Source of the DNA: Coriobacteriia bacterium
Lineage (GTDB): Bacteria; Actinomycetota; Coriobacteriia; Anaerosomatales; JAAXUF01
Assembly: GCA_013336165.1 (NCBI GenBank)
Contig: JAAXUF010000016.1
Location: 1 to 35,161, forward strand
Length of the DNA stretch: 35,161 nucleotides
Direction of reading: 5' to 3'
In this document: piece by piece, positions 2,602-13,365 of the stretch
Layout: each line of letters begins with the position of its first letter
How positions within the stretch are numbered: the first letter of the stretch is position 1
Program-made: the position numbers and the translations under genes
The notes under the pieces: generated by a model
The model's input: the letters and a program-made list of their open reading frames with translations, nothing else
Database searches by the model: none
Told to the model about the DNA's origin: nothing

Positions 2602-2706
2602 GATTCCCCCTTCATGGATGACTTTCTTTTTGGGTGAAAATACCACTACGAGAGAGGAGTAGGAAGGTCATTCATCCCTATCCGTACCTGCCTATCACTC
2701 GTAGTT

Positions 2707-2725
2707 GTGGGGTGTTTGTGGGGTG
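2707..2725 (+). repeat. Pair of GTGGGGTG direct repeats, candidate integrase arm sites of the prophage
   Basis: GTGGGGTG occurs at 2707-2714 and 2718-2725, an 11-bp period (one helical turn), just outside the tRNA-Arg 3' end on the prophage side. Tyrosine-integrase arm-type sites commonly look like this. The same 11-bp spacing occurs in the AGTAACTG pairs on the island side, although the sequence differs. Confidence 0.45.
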
Positions 2726-2740
2726 ACGGCCCCAACGCAG

Positions 2741-2764
2741 GCGGCGGGATTTCACTCCCGCCGC
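2741..2764 (-). terminator. Terminator hairpin of tRNA-Arg
   Basis: GCGGCGGGA and TCCCGCCGC form a perfect 9-bp GC-rich stem with a 6-base loop, 10 bases beyond the tRNA 3' end on the minus strand. No T-run follows, so the stem strength carries the call. Confidence 0.55.
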
Positions 2765-2774
2765 AGGTCAGACA

Positions 2775-2850
2775 TGGTGCCCCCGGGCTGATTCGAACAG
2801 CCGACACCAGGTTTAGGAAACCTGTGCTCTATCCCCTGAGCTACGAGGGC
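2775..2850 (-). tRNA. tRNA-Arg (anticodon CCT)
   Basis: The minus strand folds into a full 76-base cloverleaf. The acceptor stem is GCCCTCG/CGGGGGC, the anticodon stem is CAGGT/ACCTG with loop TTCCTAA, the T-loop is TTCGAAT and CCA is encoded. Anticodon CCT (plus-strand AGG at 2815-2817) reads the Arg codon AGG. The 5' half is duplicated exactly 10.5 kb away at 13326-13365, so the gene was used as an attachment site. Its present 5' half and upstream region belong to the island, so its promoter may be island-derived. Confidence 0.95.
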
Positions 2851-2852
2851 TT
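2813..2852 (+). repeat. Island attachment site, left copy (40-bp direct repeat in tRNA-Arg)
   Basis: Forty identical bases occur here and at 13326-13365, both beginning TTAGGAAACC and ending CGAGGGCTT. The repeat starts inside the anticodon loop, runs through the tRNA 5' end and extends 2 bases beyond it. Tyrosine recombinases often cross over in the anticodon loop of a tRNA gene, which fits this left boundary. Confidence 0.85.
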
Positions 2853-2905
2853 TTCGCTGGTAGATGGCTTGTGCACGAACTCCCAGCTGGCATGCATTGC
2901 GTTCG

Positions 2906-2924
2906 AGTAACTGTATAGTAACTG
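2906..2924 (+). repeat. AGTAACTG direct-repeat pair, left integrase arm-type sites
   Basis: AGTAACTG at 2906-2913 and 2917-2924 are 11 bp apart, 54 bp inside the left attachment repeat. The same motif and spacing recur at 7801-7819 (second copy AGTAACGG) and 13210-13228, both next to integrase-tail remnants. Confidence 0.6.
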
Positions 2925-3361
2925 GCTCATTCTAGACAGCCTCAGAACTGGTGCTCGAGCGCCCATACATGGTAGCCGAATCCGACCAGTTCCACCAACG
3001 GCTGAAATCCGGATACAGCACATCTTCTGTTGAACCATCCTTGCGAACCACATATCGCCCATGGTCTTTGCTGCCCGGCTTGCATCGTTCGGTAGGAGAG
3101 CATCTCGGCAGCAAGTACGTCGTTGAAGCCCCTGCACTTGTTGCTGAGGAGGCTTGAGATGCCCCTCCGCTCCTCTTCACGCATTCTGCGGTTGGAAGTC
3201 CCGCCCCGGCCCGTCTGGATCACGCCTGATGGCCCCTGCATGGCCACTCTCTGCTAACCGAACGGGTTTGTCGATCAGCGATGAGCATATTGTCCGCAAT
3301 GCCCACAAAGCCGTCGGCGAAACCCATTCGGTCAAATCGCAGACTATTTCGTTTGACTAAC
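2925..3361. other. Island left flank without a confident gene
   Basis: Short frames exist on both strands but none combines a ribosome-binding site with a recognisable family. On the minus strand two overlapping frames in about 2932-3247 look like pieces of one decayed coding sequence (one reads RYVVRKDGSTEDVLYPDFSR). No transposase or integrase motif was recognised. Confidence 0.4.
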
Positions 3362-3991
3362 CTATGTGTGGCACGTCCCACACACAAAGACACTCTGGTG
3401 ATGGCAGGAGACGCAATACGCCTTTGGGTCCAATTTCACATGCATGGCGTGGCACTTCGAACATGTCATCTTCGCGTCGACGTGTGCCTTGGTCAATGTT
3501 GGCGCTAGGTGCGGGTTGATCACGGTTCCGTTTGCGTCGGTAAGCACGGTTGAGGCGACCGTCTTCTTGACCAGCTCCGCAAGCGTGGTGTTATGGCAGG
3601 CAGAAGATAGACATGTCTTCTCATCCACCATCGTCTTGGTGAGCTTCAGATCCGCGGGTACCTTAGTGTCCACAGTCACACCACCATGAGCATTCTTAAG
3701 TCCGGTGACATCGGTGTGACAACTCATGCATTTCACGCCTGCACCAGCGTGCTTCGCGATTAGCATCGTGGTGTCTTTGGCCGATTCTGTTTCTGTCGCG
3801 TGGCATGTCGTGCAATCGGATGAGGCACTCCAAGCAAAGCTTTGTGCCTGCATGGTTCCTGAAGTGTCATCAGGTTCAGTGTTCTGGGACTTCCCGCATC
3901 CGGCAAGAAGCGCTACTGCGACTACAAGAAGAATAGCCAGCAAGATGCAAGATCGTCGGTTTGCTCTCTTTGCACTTTTCATAGTGTACAT
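3362..3991 (-). CDS. Secreted hexaheme-type c cytochrome, lipoprotein
   Basis: The 209-residue protein has a basic N-terminus, a hydrophobic helix and the lipobox LLAGC (Cys32), so it should sit outside the membrane as a lipoprotein. Five CXXCH sites (CTTCH 60, CMSCH 88, CSKCH 177, CVSCH 193, CGTCH 204) and one CX4CH site (CLSSACH 127) give up to six covalent hemes; several extra His could be axial ligands. It resembles the small cytochromes that feed extracytoplasmic flavoprotein reductases, like the fumarate-reductase-type flavocytochromes and the cytochrome partner in the Eggerthella cgr operon. It lies downstream of the flavoprotein gene in the same direction, separated by about 390 bases with a strong hairpin. 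The start could also be ATG 3982; neither has a strong ribosome-binding site. Confidence 0.85.
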   Translation of the reverse strand: MYTMKSAKRANRRSCILLAILLVVAVALLAGCGKSQNTEPDDTSGTMQAQSFAWSASSDCTTCHATETESAKDTTMLIAKHAGAGVKCMSCHTDVTGLKNAHGGVTVDTKVPADLKLTKTMVDEKTCLSSACHNTTLAELVKKTVASTVLTDANGTVINPHLAPTLTKAHVDAKMTCSKCHAMHVKLDPKAYCVSCHHQSVFVCGTCHT

Positions 3992-4380: not shown

Positions 4381-5877
4381 CTACTTGGACTTGGCATACT
4401 CGACAGCATTCTGGGCGCTCGCCCAGCCGAAAGCGGCAGCAGCTCCGATGGAGCTCACGTAATAGTGGACGAACGTGATACCGCCCGCGGTGCCTGGTAC
4501 AGCGTACAGTCCGGGAATCGGAGCGCCGCCATCTGCTTTCAGAACCTCGGCCTTGGCATTGATCGCAAGGCCGCCAAAACAGCAGCTCATACCGCCAACG
4601 ACTTCGGTTGCCCAAAATGGCGGTTTGGCGATCTTAACGATACTGGCGATCATCCCAGCAGTCCTGGGCACCGGCAGATTGGCCGTTGCGCCTGCGTCTA
4701 CGGCTGCGTTGTAGTCAGTGACGGTCTTGATCACACTGGCCCGGTTATAGCCCCAGGCTGCGATCTTCCCGGCAAGTTCCTCGATCGTGTTCGCGCTGAC
4801 CACATGACCGCCACGCTTCAGAACCTCTTGAGTTCGATCAATACCCGTCGGTGTACCGCCGGCCGTCGTGCTACCCCACTTGTCGTAGATGTACTGGTCA
4901 AAGATCAAACAGCCCCGGCCCCAGCGCTGGCGTGCCAAGGCTTCGTTGCACAGATCGCCGGCCAGTCCCATACCCTCATCGGCAAAACGAACGCCATCAA
5001 GGTTGACTACGATGGAACGGTTGTCGTGATATTGCGAACCGATCTCGGAGAATTCCATGAAGCTCAAATCGATGTTAGACGCAATGCTGTGCCCGTAGAA
5101 GGTCCCCAAGCTCTTGCTAAGCCCGGCACCGATAGCCTGAGCCATCAGCATCCCAGTGCCATCGTTGGTCGGTACACTGCGCGCGACCACTTGGTCTCCA
5201 TAAGGGCCAAGGAACTTAGTCTTCATCTCCGGATTGTTCTGAAAACCGCCGCAGGCCAAGATCACAGCCTTGGCCTTGATGTTCAAGATCTTGCCGCCTT
5301 TGTCCCTCGCCTGAAGGCCGTCGACAGTCCCATCACCGGATGTCAGAAGTTTGATGGCCTTGGTGTCCATCAACAGGGTTCCGCCAGCGTCCGTAAAGGT
5401 CTTCGCCAGAAACTCGAAGCACGCCAGGCGGGATTTGTGGGTGCTCTCAGCACCAATAGTGAACCCAGATGATGAAGCGCGAACTGGTGCGCCACTTTTC
5501 ACGATCATCTCGGTGACCTTGGGCATTCCCTCCACGAAAGTCTGCAACAACTTGCGATTGCCATAAGGCATAGTTGCCATTGCCGCCTCGATTGATGCGG
5601 GGCCGGCAGCACCGCCACCGGAATCCACGGCTGTGCCGCCAACCTGGGAGTAGGCCTCCACACAAAGCACCTTGGCCCCTGTCTTCTGCGCGGCCAAGGA
5701 AGCCGACGAGCCGCCGATGCCAAACCCGGCCACTGCCACGTCCACCTCATGATCCCAAGCGGGAACCTCTGTTGCCACTTTGCTGGTGCAGCCAGTTGCC
5801 ACAAGACCCGCCACCACGGCGCCGACTCCCACGGCGCCTTTCAGGAATCCTCGCCGATCAACCTCTTCTTCTTTCAT
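4381..5877 (-). CDS. Tat-exported FAD-dependent reductase, fumarate-reductase-like
   Basis: The 498-residue protein starts at ATG 5877, preceded by GAGGAGG at 5-base spacing; 47 further upstream in-frame codons are not used. Residues 6-35 form a Tat signal (DRRGFLKG, then a hydrophobic stretch ending ATGC). The FAD motif GFGIGG follows VDVAVA. The C-terminal FAD segment APIPGLYAV is present and conserved family patterns (GVRFADE, FGGL) occur. The His-Thr-Met-Gly-Gly stretch of true fumarate reductases reads MSCCFGGL here, and the usual GG(S/N)..GR near the C-terminus is VSSIGAAAAFG, so fumarate is an unlikely substrate. The downstream hexaheme cytochrome is the probable electron donor and the divergent membrane LuxR gene its probable regulator. 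The true acceptor is unknown. Confidence 0.85.
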   Translation of the reverse strand: MKEEEVDRRGFLKGAVGVGAVVAGLVATGCTSKVATEVPAWDHEVDVAVAGFGIGGSSASLAAQKTGAKVLCVEAYSQVGGTAVDSGGGAAGPASIEAAMATMPYGNRKLLQTFVEGMPKVTEMIVKSGAPVRASSSGFTIGAESTHKSRLACFEFLAKTFTDAGGTLLMDTKAIKLLTSGDGTVDGLQARDKGGKILNIKAKAVILACGGFQNNPEMKTKFLGPYGDQVVARSVPTNDGTGMLMAQAIGAGLSKSLGTFYGHSIASNIDLSFMEFSEIGSQYHDNRSIVVNLDGVRFADEGMGLAGDLCNEALARQRWGRGCLIFDQYIYDKWGSTTAGGTPTGIDRTQEVLKRGGHVVSANTIEELAGKIAAWGYNRASVIKTVTDYNAAVDAGATANLPVPRTAGMIASIVKIAKPPFWATEVVGGMSCCFGGLAINAKAEVLKADGGAPIPGLYAVPGTAGGITFVHYYVSSIGAAAAFGWASAQNAVEYAKSK

Positions 5878-5960
5878 CTGCTCCTCCTCACGACCACCGA
5901 GTCGCCCTGTGACGGCTCGCTGTGTACATGATGAAGGTCGGATCACAAGTGCCCAGTGTG

Positions 5961-6024
5961 CTAAAGGAACTGTCCTTGTAGTGCTTTTAGCGCTATGTCC
6001 TTCTGTGTAGTGCCCCACTATAAT
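5961..6024 (+). promoter_or_regulatory. Divergent control region: dyad, direct repeats and -10 box upstream of luxR-A
   Basis: TATAAT at 6019-6024 is a consensus -10 box 35 bases before the regulator start; no good -35 is visible, suggesting activation. Upstream, 5961-5981 reads CTA..AGGA....TCCT..TAG with near-dyad symmetry. TGTCCTT followed by GTAGTGC occurs twice (5971-5984 and 5997-6014). In the 182-base gap between two divergent genes these are the likely binding sites of the adjacent LuxR protein. Confidence 0.5.
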
Positions 6025-6059: not shown

Positions 6060-7484
6060 ATGGATGCCAGCACGGGTATCGACAAGCGTACAGTGGTGAT
6101 TTGTGCCGGCATTGCTTTCGTCTTCTACTCGACCGCCAATATCCTCCAGACTCCTATCCAAATCGGCGGCACGACGTCTCAAAGCACTGTGCTGTCGTTG
6201 TTCAAAGCAGGATTCGCCCTGTTATTGGCACTCTACATGCTCAAGGTTGGCATCTCCTTCAGGCGACTGCTGATGATCTGGGGGGTTGCCGTTTTCTTCT
6301 TCGTCTCCTCGCCGGTATTGGGGCTCTTGTCTGAATCAGCCTTCACGGATCACGTCTACTTTGTGGCCCTGGGGATAGCAACCTCAACCGGGCTGATCGT
6401 TGTGACCACCCTGCTCTCACGCCTTTCTTGGAACACAATCAAATACGTTGTCATTATTCAGCACATGCTGGCCGGATCAGCCAACTACGCCTTAACCATG
6501 CTCGGGTTTACAGACATCAAGGCGGCTGAGTATTTCTTCTATGTGTTGTTCGTGATCGCCACCGTTGTGTGGATCGTGTCCATGGGGGCTGAAAGAGACT
6601 TCGAGCTAGTCGCCGTGAGGCCCGCCGTTGATGATATTAGCCAATTGAGCCGCACCCAGATCACTCTGACTGCAATGGCTATCGGTGGTGCAGCGTTAGC
6701 TCCCTTTCTCTTCGGTGCGTTCGAGCAGCTCGCGCCCGACATGCTGGAGCTGGCATATCTTCAACCGACAAGCAGCCTGATCGACAACCTAGGGATCCCT
6801 GCAATAATCCTGATCGGTTTCCTCTTCAAGAAGGAGATCAGCATCGAGGTCTCCTTCTTCATGGTCAGTATCGGCTCATTCGTATTCCTGCTCATAGCGC
6901 TACTCGACTCTCGCTTCACCCATATGTTGTATTTCGCTACACTGGCTCTTGTGATCTACATGCACCTTGCTATCTGGCTCTTCGTCTTCAAGGTGGGCAA
7001 ATCGGGACCTGTCCAGGCAGGTGTGCTGATGGGCATCTCGGTCTTCACAGTCTCGTTCACCCGGATGTGCGGCAACCTCACGGCCTATGTTGCTCGGGCG
7101 CTTACTGATGCGCAATCGACTATTGATACCGTTAACCTTTGGGCCCTGGCGGTCTTTGCTCTGATTAACCTAAGCCTGTTCGTCATCACCTATAGATTGC
7201 AGAGAAAGATCGCTGACAGTGCGTCAGCCGAGAACCAAGCAAGTGTGAAAACGAGTCTGGAAACCTGCGCCCAGGAACTGGCGACACGGTTTTCCCTAAG
7301 TCAGAGGGAGTATCAGGTACTGTTGGAATATGCGGCTGGTCGCAGTGCGCCTTTCATAGCCAAGAAGTACTACCTGTCGGTTTTCACTGTCAAGAACTAT
7401 GTAGGCCGCTTCTATGCCAAGATGGGTATCCACGATCGGCAACAATTGCTGGACTTGCTGGAAGCTGAAGAACGAAGGAAGTAA
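6060..7484 (+). CDS. Membrane-embedded LuxR-family regulator (module A)
   Basis: The 474-residue protein has GAGGAG about 4 bases before ATG 6060. Residues 1-390 contain many hydrophobic helices (about 12) resembling a transporter-like sensor. Residues 405-470 form a LuxR/GerE helix-turn-helix with the family pattern FSLSQREYQVLLEYAAGRS...IAKKYYLSVFTVKNYVGRFYAKMG. This architecture is typical of Coriobacteriia, where such regulators sit beside flavoprotein reductase genes and are thought to respond to the reductase substrate. It is divergent from the flavoprotein/cytochrome pair across a 182-base gap, so it most likely controls that pair. The ligand is unknown, and sensing by the membrane part is inferred. 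Confidence 0.88.
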   Translation: MDASTGIDKRTVVICAGIAFVFYSTANILQTPIQIGGTTSQSTVLSLFKAGFALLLALYMLKVGISFRRLLMIWGVAVFFFVSSPVLGLLSESAFTDHVYFVALGIATSTGLIVVTTLLSRLSWNTIKYVVIIQHMLAGSANYALTMLGFTDIKAAEYFFYVLFVIATVVWIVSMGAERDFELVAVRPAVDDISQLSRTQITLTAMAIGGAALAPFLFGAFEQLAPDMLELAYLQPTSSLIDNLGIPAIILIGFLFKKEISIEVSFFMVSIGSFVFLLIALLDSRFTHMLYFATLALVIYMHLAIWLFVFKVGKSGPVQAGVLMGISVFTVSFTRMCGNLTAYVARALTDAQSTIDTVNLWALAVFALINLSLFVITYRLQRKIADSASAENQASVKTSLETCAQELATRFSLSQREYQVLLEYAAGRSAPFIAKKYYLSVFTVKNYVGRFYAKMGIHDRQQLLDLLEAEERRK

Positions 7485-7543
7485 TCGCAGTCCCTGCTCC
7501 TGCGCGCGCAACCATCTTGGCGGGAAAACACTGGCTCCGACCG

Positions 7544-7716
7544 GGCAGCAAATCGCTGAGGCGCTGTGTCATGCCGACTACCGCCGAGTGCCCGTGGAGG
7601 ATCCGGACCTGTAGCTTGAGGACCCCCTCGCCACGATCGAACTCGGTGGCATCGCTGAAGGGGCCATATTGCCGACCGGCTCATCGAGACTTGGCTGCGC
7701 ATGCGTAGAAAGCGCA
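7544..7716 (+). pseudogene. apbE fragment (internal piece, decayed)
   Basis: This stretch aligns base for base, with scattered changes, to 12157-12340 inside the intact apbE downstream. It includes CAGCAAATCGCTGAGGCGCT and the segment for the ATIDLGGIAKG region. It has an in-frame stop (TAG near 7613), small deletions, and neither N- nor C-terminus. It is joined directly to the element-end repeat at 7718, whereas the downstream copy has about 790 extra bases there, so an internal deletion fused apbE to the element end. Confidence 0.85.
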
Positions 7717-7717
7717 C

Positions 7718-7915
7718 TCGGCCGCAGGCAATTGACGAGGTAGAGAAGGCCTTGAAGCGAGCGGACTCCCACTGTTCGGCTAGAAGCGGCTCGCGAAACT
7801 AGTAACTGCATAGTAACGGTCACCAGCCGACCGGGCAGGATCTGAGAGGTCCTCAGGGGAGTTGGTTTGTGCCTGAAACACCCTACCTGATGGAAGGTAC
7901 TTCCATATCGTTAGG
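7718..7915 (+). repeat. Element-end repeat, left copy (integrase-tail remnant plus arm sites)
   Basis: Nearly identical to 13127-13330. It encodes a 23-codon tail on the pattern IDEVEKALKRADS...GSRN followed by stop, which looks like the C-terminus of a lost integrase. It then carries AGTAACTG/AGTAACGG at 7801-7819, the palindrome GGAAGGTACTTCC and the core-edge sequence CATATCGTTAGG ending at 7915. Similarity stops exactly at TTAGG, the point where the downstream copy enters the tRNA repeat. This marks a former attachment junction that has lost its tRNA half. Confidence 0.8.
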
Positions 7916-8102: not shown

Positions 8103-9629
8103 ATGTTTAAGCGGCACTTTGACGAGCTCAACTTCTTAGACAGCCTTGCTGTAGCTGCCTTCTGCGTGAGCCTGCCACTGCTCCTGCCCGTCCTCGATGC
8201 CCTCCACCATTTGATGAAGGGTATGAGTTCGCAAATGGTGCTTTCTTCCTTCAGCGCCACGAGCTTGCCCCAAACGATGCCAATGGCTGTCATGTTGACT
8301 GCGCTGGCGATCCTCTTCCTCTGTTTGTTAGGAGCCACCTACCATCGCCCTAGCAGGGGGTTTGTGACCGCAGGGGCAGTTCTCTATCTGCTCGGCTACA
8401 TCGGCTCCCAGAGCATACTCTGGTTCCCCAATCTGTCCGGATCGCTCCTTGCCGTATCAGGCCTTCTACTCGGCGTGGGGCTCAGTCTCCTCATCATGAC
8501 TTGGCTCTGGCACTTGCGGTTGCGAAACATACGTCTCACCTTTGCGTTGCTACTCATCGCACTTTGTCTCACTGCCGCGCTCAACATGGCTTTGCACTGG
8601 GTGCCCTGGCAGATTGAATCAGGTGTACGTCTTGCGCTTGCCTGCGTCGGTTCGCTTGGCGCGCTGCATGCAACCAGATCCCCGCGGTACGTCCAAGAGG
8701 CCATTGCGGCGGACAATGGCACGAACTCCAAATGGTGGGAAATCTTCGGCCACCTCAATCTCCCGTTCGCCAAAGACTCAGATGATTTCACCCCACCCTA
8801 CGCACGCGTACTCTTCTTCGTCGTGACACCCCTCGTCGTCCTCCTGCTCTTCGTCGTCAACCGGGGTGTGGACAGCGGTGCGACGACACTCCTAGGCGGA
8901 CTCTACACTCCTGAGATGATCGCCGGCCTCCTCTGTGCGCCGAGCGCCGCGATCCTGCTACTCGTATACAGTGATCAGGGTCTCGTCAGCACCATCTGCC
9001 GTCTGTATCTCCCGATGTTGGCGCTTGCCCTGTTCGCTATCGTCCCATTCGCCACAAGCGACGCCAAAATGCTGATCATGCACATCGGCATCGACGTCTT
9101 CTGCTCGATCTACGCCCTCTTGCTCTCAGCAATGCTGCTTGCCGTCGCCAATCGCATGCGCTCGCTGCTGCTGCCGTCTGCTGCCCTGCTACTGATCGCG
9201 CTTAGCCTCGTCGCGTTGCTTGCCTTCAGGGGCACTGAAGCTGGATTCCTCGGCAGTTATCGACCTCAGGTCGGCATTGCGCTGTTTGCCTGCGCCGTGG
9301 GGCTGCTTCTGCTCACGCCAGGGTCGCGGATATGGCGGATGCTTATTGAAGGCGCGGCGGATGAAAGTGAGAAGATCGCGCCTTCCTTACAAGCACGCTG
9401 CGCCGTTCTGGCCAAAGCCTATCATCTCACTGAACGTGAGGCTGAGATCATCCCCTTGCTCGGACGTGGCTACGGCGCGAGTCATGTCGCCGAGATACTC
9501 GTCGTAGCGGAGAGCACCATCCGCAGTCATCGCGGCAACATCTACCGGAAGCTCAACATCAACTCGCGCGAGGCGCTGCTTGACTTGCTTGACAGCCCAG
9601 CGATCGACAGCGACCCAGACAACGGTTGA
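8103..9629 (+). CDS. Membrane-embedded LuxR-family regulator (module B)
   Basis: The 508-residue protein has about 12 hydrophobic helices in residues 15-420 and a LuxR helix-turn-helix at about 435-495 (YHLTEREAEIIPLLGRGYGASHVAEIL...STIRSHRGNIYRKLNI). It shares architecture but little obvious sequence with the module A regulator, so the two are not recent duplicates. It lies 215 bases upstream of and in the same direction as the FMN-binding, ECF and ApbE genes, and is their probable regulator. ATG 8103 has no strong ribosome-binding site. Confidence 0.85.
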   Translation: MFKRHFDELNFLDSLAVAAFCVSLPLLLPVLDALHHLMKGMSSQMVLSSFSATSLPQTMPMAVMLTALAILFLCLLGATYHRPSRGFVTAGAVLYLLGYIGSQSILWFPNLSGSLLAVSGLLLGVGLSLLIMTWLWHLRLRNIRLTFALLLIALCLTAALNMALHWVPWQIESGVRLALACVGSLGALHATRSPRYVQEAIAADNGTNSKWWEIFGHLNLPFAKDSDDFTPPYARVLFFVVTPLVVLLLFVVNRGVDSGATTLLGGLYTPEMIAGLLCAPSAAILLLVYSDQGLVSTICRLYLPMLALALFAIVPFATSDAKMLIMHIGIDVFCSIYALLLSAMLLAVANRMRSLLLPSAALLLIALSLVALLAFRGTEAGFLGSYRPQVGIALFACAVGLLLLTPGSRIWRMLIEGAADESEKIAPSLQARCAVLAKAYHLTEREAEIIPLLGRGYGASHVAEILVVAESTIRSHRGNIYRKLNINSREALLDLLDSPAIDSDPDNG

Positions 9630-10949: not shown

Positions 10950-11498
10950 ATGCAGCCGGGCAGATTGGAACGCTCGCCAAAGCAGTTCGCCGCGCTCATC
11001 ATACTCGCGCTCATGGCCATGGTGATGAGCTTCATTCAACTGTCGTCTTTCCCTGGTGCCGAGTGGTTGAAGTACGACCCTTCGGGCGTCGTTGTGCTTC
11101 TGGCAGGTTTTCTCTACGGTCCTTGGTACGGTGCGGCCGTAGCCGCCTTTGCTTGGGCACCCCAATTAGCCACCAGCCCGTTCGATGCAATCATGAACAC
11201 TATGTTCTCGGTCTCATACGTCGTGGTCACCGCGCTCGTCTACCGCCAGGCTCCGAGATTCATGCGCGCCGTGCTCGGCATCTGCGCCGGTATCCTTGCC
11301 GCAGTGACCGCCTCGATCTGCCTCAACTTCGTCGTCACACCGTTCTACCTGTCTCGCACTTATGAAGATGTTGTGGCCCTCGTCCTGCCCACCTTGCTGC
11401 CTTTCAACCTCGGCAAGGCTGTGCTCAACGGTGTCATCGCACTCATCGCCTATCGCGGTCTCGAGTCCCTGCTGACCGACGAGGAGAATAGAAGTTGA
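10950..11498 (+). CDS. ECF transporter S component-like membrane protein, probable flavin transport
   Basis: The 182-residue protein has about five or six hydrophobic helices. It shows S-component landmarks: an early YDPSGVVVLLAGFLYGPWYGAAV segment and a C-terminal LLPFNLGKAVLNGVIALIAY segment, both resembling RibU-type riboflavin-binding subunits. No energising ATPase genes are nearby; a shared ECF module elsewhere is usual for group II systems. Its place between a flavinylated protein and ApbE parallels the transporter plus flavin transferase pairing in Listeria flavin-based electron transfer. Moving flavin to supply external FMN attachment is therefore a reasonable inference, but the substrate is not proven. 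Confidence 0.75.
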   Translation: MQPGRLERSPKQFAALIILALMAMVMSFIQLSSFPGAEWLKYDPSGVVVLLAGFLYGPWYGAAVAAFAWAPQLATSPFDAIMNTMFSVSYVVVTALVYRQAPRFMRAVLGICAGILAAVTASICLNFVVTPFYLSRTYEDVVALVLPTLLPFNLGKAVLNGVIALIAYRGLESLLTDEENRS

Positions 11499-11825
11499 CG
11501 GGAGAAACGGTTCCTCATATCAACCCTCAGGCAGACAGGCTTCCGCTATCAATTCGTGGGGCTGTGACTGTCGCTTCTTGGTCTTCATGGGGATGGCGGG
11601 CCACTTGTAGCCAGAAGATCGCAGGAGCTGAAGGAGCAAACGGCCCCGTAGTAGCTCGATGTCTTCCCGTATGCCGTGTCAGAGAATCTTGGGCAATTCG
11701 GGCCGAAATTGGTGTTTACGATATACATCCAGAGGACGTTCTCACACGCCACCAACGCGAGGCGAGCCCATCAATCGATGTGGAGCCGACTTGCGTGGGA
11801 TCATTCGCTTCGGCAAGGGGAAGAG
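11499..11825. other. Spacer between ECF component and apbE, no confident gene
   Basis: A frame starting at TTG 11495 overlaps the ECF stop and runs to 11860 (MTGETVPHIN..., one weak hydrophobic patch GAVTVASWSSWGW), but no family is recognised. The spacer may hold a decayed N-terminal signal region of apbE, whose called start lacks any export signal, or a lost small gene. Confidence 0.4.
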
Positions 11826-12776
11826 ATGGCCGCTGTACCATCAACACCGTTTACCCGTGAGTTCTTTGCATTCAACACCACGAACCGTGTCAGTGCCTGG
11901 ACGGCCGATGCCGCCGCCCTTGACGAAGTCGTGGCGCTTTGTGTGCGTTACGAAAAGCTCTTCTCGCGCACCGACCCGATAAGCGAGCTTACGCGTCTGA
12001 ATCTGGCCTGTGGCGAACCGATGGATGTCGACGGCGAGCTCGCGGCACTTACCAGCGCTGCCTTCGGGTACAGCAAAGCGTCCGGTGGACTCTATGACGT
12101 GACGATGGGGGCCGTTGTTCGACTGTGGGATTTCAAGGGGCAGGTTATCCCGACTGAGCAGCAAATCGCTGAGGCGCTGTGTCATGTCGACTACCGCCGA
12201 GTGCATGTGGAGGGCGCGACCGTGCAGCTCGAGGACCCCCTCGCCACGATCGACCTCGGCGGCATCGCCAAAGGCTACATTGCCGACCGGCTCATCGAGA
12301 CTCTGGTTGCGCATGGCGTAGAAAGCGCACTCGTCAACCTTGGGGGCAATGTTGCGGTGCTCGGTGGCAAGCCAGATGGCACCGCCTGGCGCATTGGTCT
12401 GCGCAGGCCGCAGTCCTCCTTGATGCAGCAGGCCCCCCAGTCCTTCGGAATGTTTGAGGTGCGCGACCGATCAGTGGTGACGAGCGGCGTCTACGAGCGC
12501 GCCTTTGAACGCGAGGGACGGCTCTACCATCACATCCTCGACCCGCGCAGCGGTTATCCAGCGGATACCGACCTGCTCGGTGCTTCGGTCGTCGCCGAGC
12601 GCTCCCTCGACGCTGACGGCTATTCGACGGCACTGATCATCATGGGGCTCGACAAGGCGCTCGGCTTCATTGAAGATCAACCGGGTCTCGAAGCGGTCTT
12701 CGTCACCACCTCAGGTGAGGTCTATGCGAGTTCAGGAATCGGTACCTTGCTGCCCTTCAAACTCCTGGATTGCTGA
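11826..12776 (+). CDS. apbE: ApbE flavin transferase
   Basis: The 316-residue protein transfers FMN from FAD to a Thr in target proteins, here presumably Thr168 and Thr318 of the FMN protein upstream. Conserved segments appear in order: TREFFAFNTTNRVSAW at the N-terminus, SRTDPISELTRLN, GGLYDVTMGAVVRLW, IDLGGIAKGYIADRL, ALVNLGGNVAVLG, SGVYERAFER and YHHILDPRSGYPAD. The Mg-binding DADGYSTALIIMG follows. ATG 11826 follows AAGGGGAA closely; an upstream in-frame ATG at 11676 lacks family similarity. No signal peptide or lipobox is visible, although most ApbE proteins act outside the membrane. Either it works inside or its leader has been lost. Confidence 0.92.
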   Translation: MAAVPSTPFTREFFAFNTTNRVSAWTADAAALDEVVALCVRYEKLFSRTDPISELTRLNLACGEPMDVDGELAALTSAAFGYSKASGGLYDVTMGAVVRLWDFKGQVIPTEQQIAEALCHVDYRRVHVEGATVQLEDPLATIDLGGIAKGYIADRLIETLVAHGVESALVNLGGNVAVLGGKPDGTAWRIGLRRPQSSLMQQAPQSFGMFEVRDRSVVTSGVYERAFEREGRLYHHILDPRSGYPADTDLLGASVVAERSLDADGYSTALIIMGLDKALGFIEDQPGLEAVFVTTSGEVYASSGIGTLLPFKLLDC

Positions 12777-12814: not shown

Positions 12815-13014
<200 letters not shown>

Positions 13015-13126
13015 ACAGGCAGAGCATTGAAGCTCAGACTCCCGCTGAGGGCAGCTGCCTGAATGGGCCCCGGAGCAGCTGAGGCAGGCGCCGAGACGTT
13101 GTCTGATCTGCGCAGCCTCTTTGACA

Positions 13127-13330
13127 TCGGCCGCGGGCGGTTGACGAGGTAGAGAAGGCCTTGAAGCGAGCGGACTCCCGCTGTTCGGCTAGAAGAGGCT
13201 CGCGAAACTAGTAACTGCATAGTAACTGTCACCAGCCGACCGGGCAGGATCTGAGAGGTCCTCAGGGGAGTTGGTTTGTGCCTGAAACACCCTCACTGGG
13301 CCTGATGGAAGGTACTTCCATATCGTTAGG
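13127..13330 (+). repeat. Element-end repeat, right copy (integrase-tail remnant, arm sites, core edge)
   Basis: The partner of 7718-7915. A frame reads RAVDEVEKALKRADS...GSRN and stops at 13209-13211, like the end of a tyrosine integrase whose body is missing. AGTAACTG occurs at 13210-13217 and 13221-13228. CTGAG-n5-CTCAG (13251-13265) and GGAAGGTACTTCC (13307-13319) are inverted repeats close to the core. The copy runs directly into the 40-bp tRNA repeat, marking the true right end. Confidence 0.8.
13210..13228 (+). repeat. AGTAACTG direct-repeat pair, right integrase arm-type sites
   Basis: Two exact AGTAACTG copies 11 bp apart, about 98 bp inside the right attachment repeat. They overlap the stop codon of the integrase-tail remnant and have the same orientation and spacing as the left pair at 2906-2924. 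Confidence 0.6.
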
Positions 13331-13365
13331 AAACCTGTGCTCTATCCCCTGAGCTACGAGGGCTT
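13326..13365 (+). repeat. Island attachment site, right copy (truncated tRNA-Arg 5' half)
   Basis: Exact 40-bp copy of 2813-2852. It holds only tRNA positions 1 to the anticodon loop and cannot fold into a tRNA. It is probably the original chromosomal 5' half displaced when the island entered. Confidence 0.85.

Follow-up and report, generated by a model that had tools for sequence, protein, structure and literature searches.

The window analyzed here is a stretch of 35,161 nucleotides from a Coriobacteriia bacterium, and it contains a tRNA-Arg gene (anticodon CCT) whose 5' half, counted outward from the anticodon loop, is repeated exactly at 13326-13365. The features of this region are as follows.

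2775-2850, minus strand: tRNA-Arg (anticodon CCT), the gene targeted by insertion and made whole again at the left junction (ARAGORN)
2813-2852, no strand: core, left copy, 40 bp (direct repeat D3, identical to 13326-13365)
2906-2924, plus strand: left pair AGTAACTG-tat-AGTAACTG, exact, 11-bp period; proposed arm-type sites, position kept in relatives
2966-2998, minus strand: proposed replacement tRNA promoter, with TTGGTG (2993-2998), an 18-bp spacer and TACCAT (2969-2974) in GCTACCATGTA (2966-2976)
3362-3991, minus strand: cargo, cytochrome-c-like lipoprotein ORF (weak Pfam cytochrome matches)
4381-6018, minus strand: cargo, FAD-binding flavoprotein (flavocytochrome c-like)
6060-7484, plus strand: cargo, membrane LuxR-type regulator
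7537-7720, plus strand: apbE remnant, a copy of 12150-12333 (87%)
7718-7915, plus strand: middle junction, a second right-end copy (rpoC-tail remnant at 7718-7782, pair, core cut after TTAGG)
7801-7819, plus strand: middle pair AGTAACTG-cat-AGTAACGG, its second unit mismatched at one base
8103-9629, plus strand: cargo, second LuxR-type regulator
10950-11498, plus strand: cargo, ECF transporter substrate-binding component
11676-12776, plus strand: cargo, ApbE (FAD:protein FMN transferase)
12835-13191, plus strand: decayed rpoC 3' end, source of the VDEVEKALKRADS peptide
13210-13228, plus strand: right pair AGTAACTG-cat-AGTAACTG, exact, 11-bp period; proposed arm-type sites
13326-13365, no strand: core, right copy, 40 bp (direct repeat D3)

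Because the 5' half is repeated exactly, the DNA between the two copies is an island that arrived with a 5' half of its own and displaced the native one, now at 13326. A further right end, with a core that stops after TTAGG, forms the middle junction, and we therefore read the region as two islands in tandem. The rebuilt tRNA gene and the displaced fragment lie in direct orientation, as in tRNA-gene genomic islands, and the attL and attR ends, with no recombination module detected between them, are those of a cis-mobilizable element (CIME); no integrase gene, as an autonomous integrative element would have, was detected in the element. The window thus most likely holds tandem, integrase-less tRNA islands. 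Their cargo would suit anaerobic respiration (cytochrome c, flavoprotein, ApbE), with no integrase detected in either, and their recombination would need an integrase acting in trans or would be a past event.

The initial annotation had described AGTAACTG pairs at all three junctions, always between the core and the interior. The unit occurs five times in the window, always on the plus strand (2906, 2917, 7801, 13210 and 13221), compared with 0.31 copies expected from shuffling, and five or more copies were reached in 0 of 100 shuffles. The left and right pairs are exact and lie between the 40-bp core and the interior, as described; the middle pair carries the mismatched unit AGTAACGG, adjoins the interrupted core and is itself a duplicate. 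A block is repeated, one copy holding the middle pair and the other the right pair (7718-7889 and 13127-13298, 95%; in a longer alignment of this right-end block, 7718-7915 and 13127-13330, 93.6%), and since the pair at 7801-7819 belongs to it, the independent observations number two rather than three. The surroundings of the left and right pairs have nothing in common beyond the motif. The 17-base form of the pair, AGTAACTGNATAGTAAC, occurs at three places in the whole genome (1,987,874 bases), all within the element in the window, and the reversed pattern used as a control occurs at none; the motif pair is thus neither frequent nor randomly placed in this 1.99-Mb genome. That the pairs are chance repeats is hardly credible: one duplication does account for both the middle and the right copy, but the shuffles, the uniqueness of the pair in the genome and, as described below, its presence at both ends and its conserved offsets all argue otherwise.

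It had also been proposed that the island once encoded its own integrase, ending in VDEVEKALKRADS, of which only the tail survives beside the arm sites. A VDEVEKALKRADS peptide does end right before the pairs, but its coding DNA aligns with a place on contig C3 of this organism's genome, the end of the organism's own rpoC ORF (82-88% over about 65-90 bases). This ORF encodes the RNA polymerase beta' subunit (NCBIfam, E 1.8e-199) with an alpha-subunit-like (alpha-CTD-like) C-terminus, and the same gene is matched further upstream in the window (12835-13087; 75% over 258 bases); the fragment itself is unrecognised by Pfam. To judge from these alignments, the peptide is a shifted-frame reading of an rpoC remnant. 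A tblastn search with three related integrases found nothing significant in the window and no remnant. A former integrase with a VDEVEKALKRADS tail is very improbable. Decayed rpoC 3' ends are seen at the right ends of both islands (12835-13191 and 7718-7782). Of nine Phage_integrase matches in the genome, not one lies on the window's contig, and the subfamily found in relatives has no match anywhere in the genome at E<=1e-60. As to the wider claim that an integrase had been lost, the element may equally never have carried one, because another island, whose ends are closely related and whose only gene is a Fic gene, is also without an integrase.

To find relatives, 60 tRNA-Arg regions were sampled from among the matches listed (374 of 396 genomes matched); 57 of these gave a full-length match, and L084, L086 and L097 were dropped. 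Four of the 57 tRNA-Arg(CCT) regions (L059, L068, L095 and L096) have the 5' half twice, the anticodon loop marking the crossover, and core homology begins at the anticodon loop in these four, in the window, and in G014 and G030, which have additional cores with integrases. The integrases of L095 (365 aa, with a sub-threshold AP2 match at its N-terminus) and L068 (368-377 aa, depending on the start) are 53% identical; that of L096 is truncated, and L059 is a 1.6 kb island whose sole content is a Fic protein, with no integrase. All of the six best integrase matches in the order (E<=3.4e-88) are associated with tRNA-Arg(CCT) as target, four adjoining the gene and two lying on contigs that carry the 5'-half core. 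L088 (genome G036) has an integrase of the same family, read with one internal stop; similarity of the G014 and G036 integrases comes from tblastn, because the open-frame script missed both. A phylum-level integrase search at E<=1e-110 gave no match among the 20 of 396 genomes listed, and the six genomes known to match lie outside these 20. In G014, a single core joins two elements whose pair sequences differ (TCCGTGGGC in one, TGCTACCG in the other), an independent tandem case. This site corresponds to L231/L232 on contig C30, at about 78.6-84.1 kb, and the 40 kb examined there showed no full tRNA-Arg.

Across these elements the pairs differ in sequence: AGTAACTG in the window and L059, TGCGTCT in L068 and G036, and TGCTACCG in L095, L096 and G014, the last form recurring in G030 with one change. 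Their distances from the crossover, counted from the AGG of the core, are nearly constant. For the right pairs the offsets are -118/-107 in the window, in L095, in G014 and, taken in the same register, in G030, and L059 and L096 keep the -107 unit; L068, at -143/-132, and the second G014 element, at -121/-110, depart from this. On the left, the pairs lie at +102/+113 or +103/+114 in L068, L095, L096, G014 and G036, and at +91/+102 in the window, one 11-bp step closer, a step close to the 10-nt gap seen beside the tRNA. Exact pairs shared by both ends were found in the window, L068 and L095 (0 of 500 shuffles each), and two of the five elements, L059 and L096, each with one degenerate or respaced pair, fail this strict test on that account. 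Among the 54 sampled loci long enough for the control, an exact pair stands at the expected place in four (L068, L088, L095 and L096), and all four have a neighboring element with an integrase of the same family. The repeats thus flank the core on both sides, separate from the core-type sites, in a geometry conserved with the integrase-bearing family (L068 and the second G014 element deviating on the right), as would be expected of the arm-type sites that a bivalent integrase uses. The pair unit is, in addition, one base in eight off the sequence at an annotated lambda Int site (AGTGACTG). We consider it highly probable, from these sequence comparisons, that the pairs are integrase arm-type sites at the ends of tRNA-Arg islands, two of which stand in tandem here; the arm-site reading of the initial annotation is supported by integrase-bearing relatives that share the tRNA-Arg target and crossover and carry 11-bp pairs at near-fixed distances at both ends.

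As a search handle, on the other hand, the exact sequence failed. Within the 69 genomes of the order it occurs in the window's own genome only, and the paired motif was found at seven places in genome_contigs, none with a tRNA at the locus, and at none in viral contigs; by eye, among the matches listed, the seven places adjoin ribosomal, metabolic, transport or regulator genes, or are simple tandem arrays. No AGTAACTG-type pairs were present in 80 integrase loci from viral contigs, and neither phage nor plasmid collections yielded anything of use when searched at the DNA level. The handle that did find relatives is the 5'-half duplication of tRNA-Arg(CCT). A Candidatus Omnitrophota contig (L053) contains long arrays of 10-bp repeats on AGTAAC, unrelated to the pairs.

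Just inside the left pair, the window and L059 have TTGGTG or TTGGTC, 18 bp and TACCATGTA. Part of the L059 copy matches the sequence directly upstream of tRNA-Arg in G055 (96% of 25 bases) and G054 (95% of 22 bases), and other native tRNA-Arg sites have the same type of promoter, in a listing that spans 34 of the sampled regions. L095 and L096 carry a GATACAATACG-type copy beside the pair that resembles their displaced native promoters, and no copy was recognised in L068 or G036, where the 3' end of the integrase fills that place. Taken alone the motif is weak, with at least one match at one mismatch in 14 of 100 window shuffles. The conserved left end was also considered as a short protein, a candidate dropped as the tRNA promoter fits better. 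Insertion at the anticodon loop separates the tRNA from its promoter, and we propose that the islands carry a tRNA-type promoter inside the left pair because the tRNA must stay transcribed. Since the left end resembles the tRNA-Arg promoters of relatives, the left pair would form part of the pre-tRNA's 5' leader and, wherever a promoter copy exists, would be transcribed with it. Such a position, between a tRNA-type promoter and the tRNA, would also suit operators of a regulator of the tRNA leader or the cargo. We regard this as unlikely: the pair recurs at the far end with its orientation unchanged, and there it stands ahead of no tRNA promoter; from one element to the next it keeps nearly the same distance from the crossover; and it is absent from tRNA-Arg loci without an element.

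The window and L059, although from different families, share both ends of their elements: an 80-bp alignment of the right ends shows 77.5% identity (E 2e-15), and the left ends align through the promoter. A third such right end lies near the tRNA-Arg of G040 (E 1.1e-9 against the window, 4.8e-4 against L059) and is followed by the start of a Fic-like gene. An inverted repeat, TGGAAGgtaCTTCCA, closely precedes the core at each of the two right ends in the window (13306-13320 and 7891-7905), possibly another binding site, and was not seen at the right end of L059; there, as in the window, a reading frame (the Fic gene) stops a few bases ahead of the right pair. No integrase is visible in the elements of the window, L059 or G040, which either all lost theirs or were moved in trans. 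The right end itself occurs in three of 396 class genomes (the window's own, G029 and G040), with no integrase shown inside the element, and none with AGTAACTG arms was found. A variant of the arm-site explanation, which keeps the arm sites, is that both islands lost a AGTAACTG-type integrase by deletion, and L059 independently, with no mobilisation in trans. In its favor, the middle junction shows decay, rpoC and apbE survive as decayed remnants, and the integrase of L096 is truncated; against it, no integrase remnant was detected, and two islands in different families have both ends in common and both are without the gene; we give this variant slightly less than an even chance. More tentatively, and in our estimate with rather low probability, these could be tRNA-based cassettes: integrase-less islands with shared ends and their own promoter, stacked at the tRNA-Arg anticodon loop, that borrow an integrase in trans. 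If so, they would spread respiration genes or Fic proteins among families, and as the left arm sites would lie inside the pre-tRNA leader, occupancy by the integrase would throttle tRNA-Arg(CCT), linking island mobility to translation.

The kind of island is already known, and the window's islands are a variant of it. As in a lambda-type attP, short repeats lie on both arms apart from the core and the overlap is loop-like, in line with the account in PMC4880445, and the unit resembles the annotated lambda Int site; unlike lambda, the window has two sites per arm, in the same orientation on both arms and with 11-bp spacing, and no integrase gene was detected in the element. The islands treated in the Islander report (PMC4383910) likewise show an anticodon-centred crossover, a displaced tRNA fragment and tandem arrays. 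Those it counts mostly have 3' fragments (3760, compared with 159 with a 5' fragment), whereas the window displaces a 5' fragment, and Islander tests for an integrase gene, which was not detected in the window's islands; such islands would escape methods that require one. The pTN3-type archaeal elements, as presented in an archaeal review (PMC8371274), likewise insert by way of a tRNA gene's 5' half and place the rebuilt tRNA under a promoter on the element, which is that of the integrase in pTN3 and would be a copy of a tRNA-type promoter here. According to that review, bacteria seldom show a rebuilt tRNA expressed from the element that inserted at its 5' half; the present case documents 5'-half insertion with a carried, putative tRNA-type promoter. 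The Dehalococcoides ssrA islands are also tandem anaerobic-respiration islands, and the description in PMC3146451 includes 15 without an integration module that are possibly mobilised by accretion, but those islands use a serine recombinase at the tmRNA 3' end, compared with a tyrosine integrase at the tRNA-Arg 5' half here. With arm sites that change in sequence between related islands at a nearly fixed spacing from the crossover, the family suits the study of co-evolution between integrases and their sites.

Fic or Fic-like genes occur as cargo or neighbors at tRNA-Arg(CCT) in three genomes (L059:1376-2536, the one assigned by Pfam; L096, oriented, 2626-3954; L076, oriented, from about 3030).
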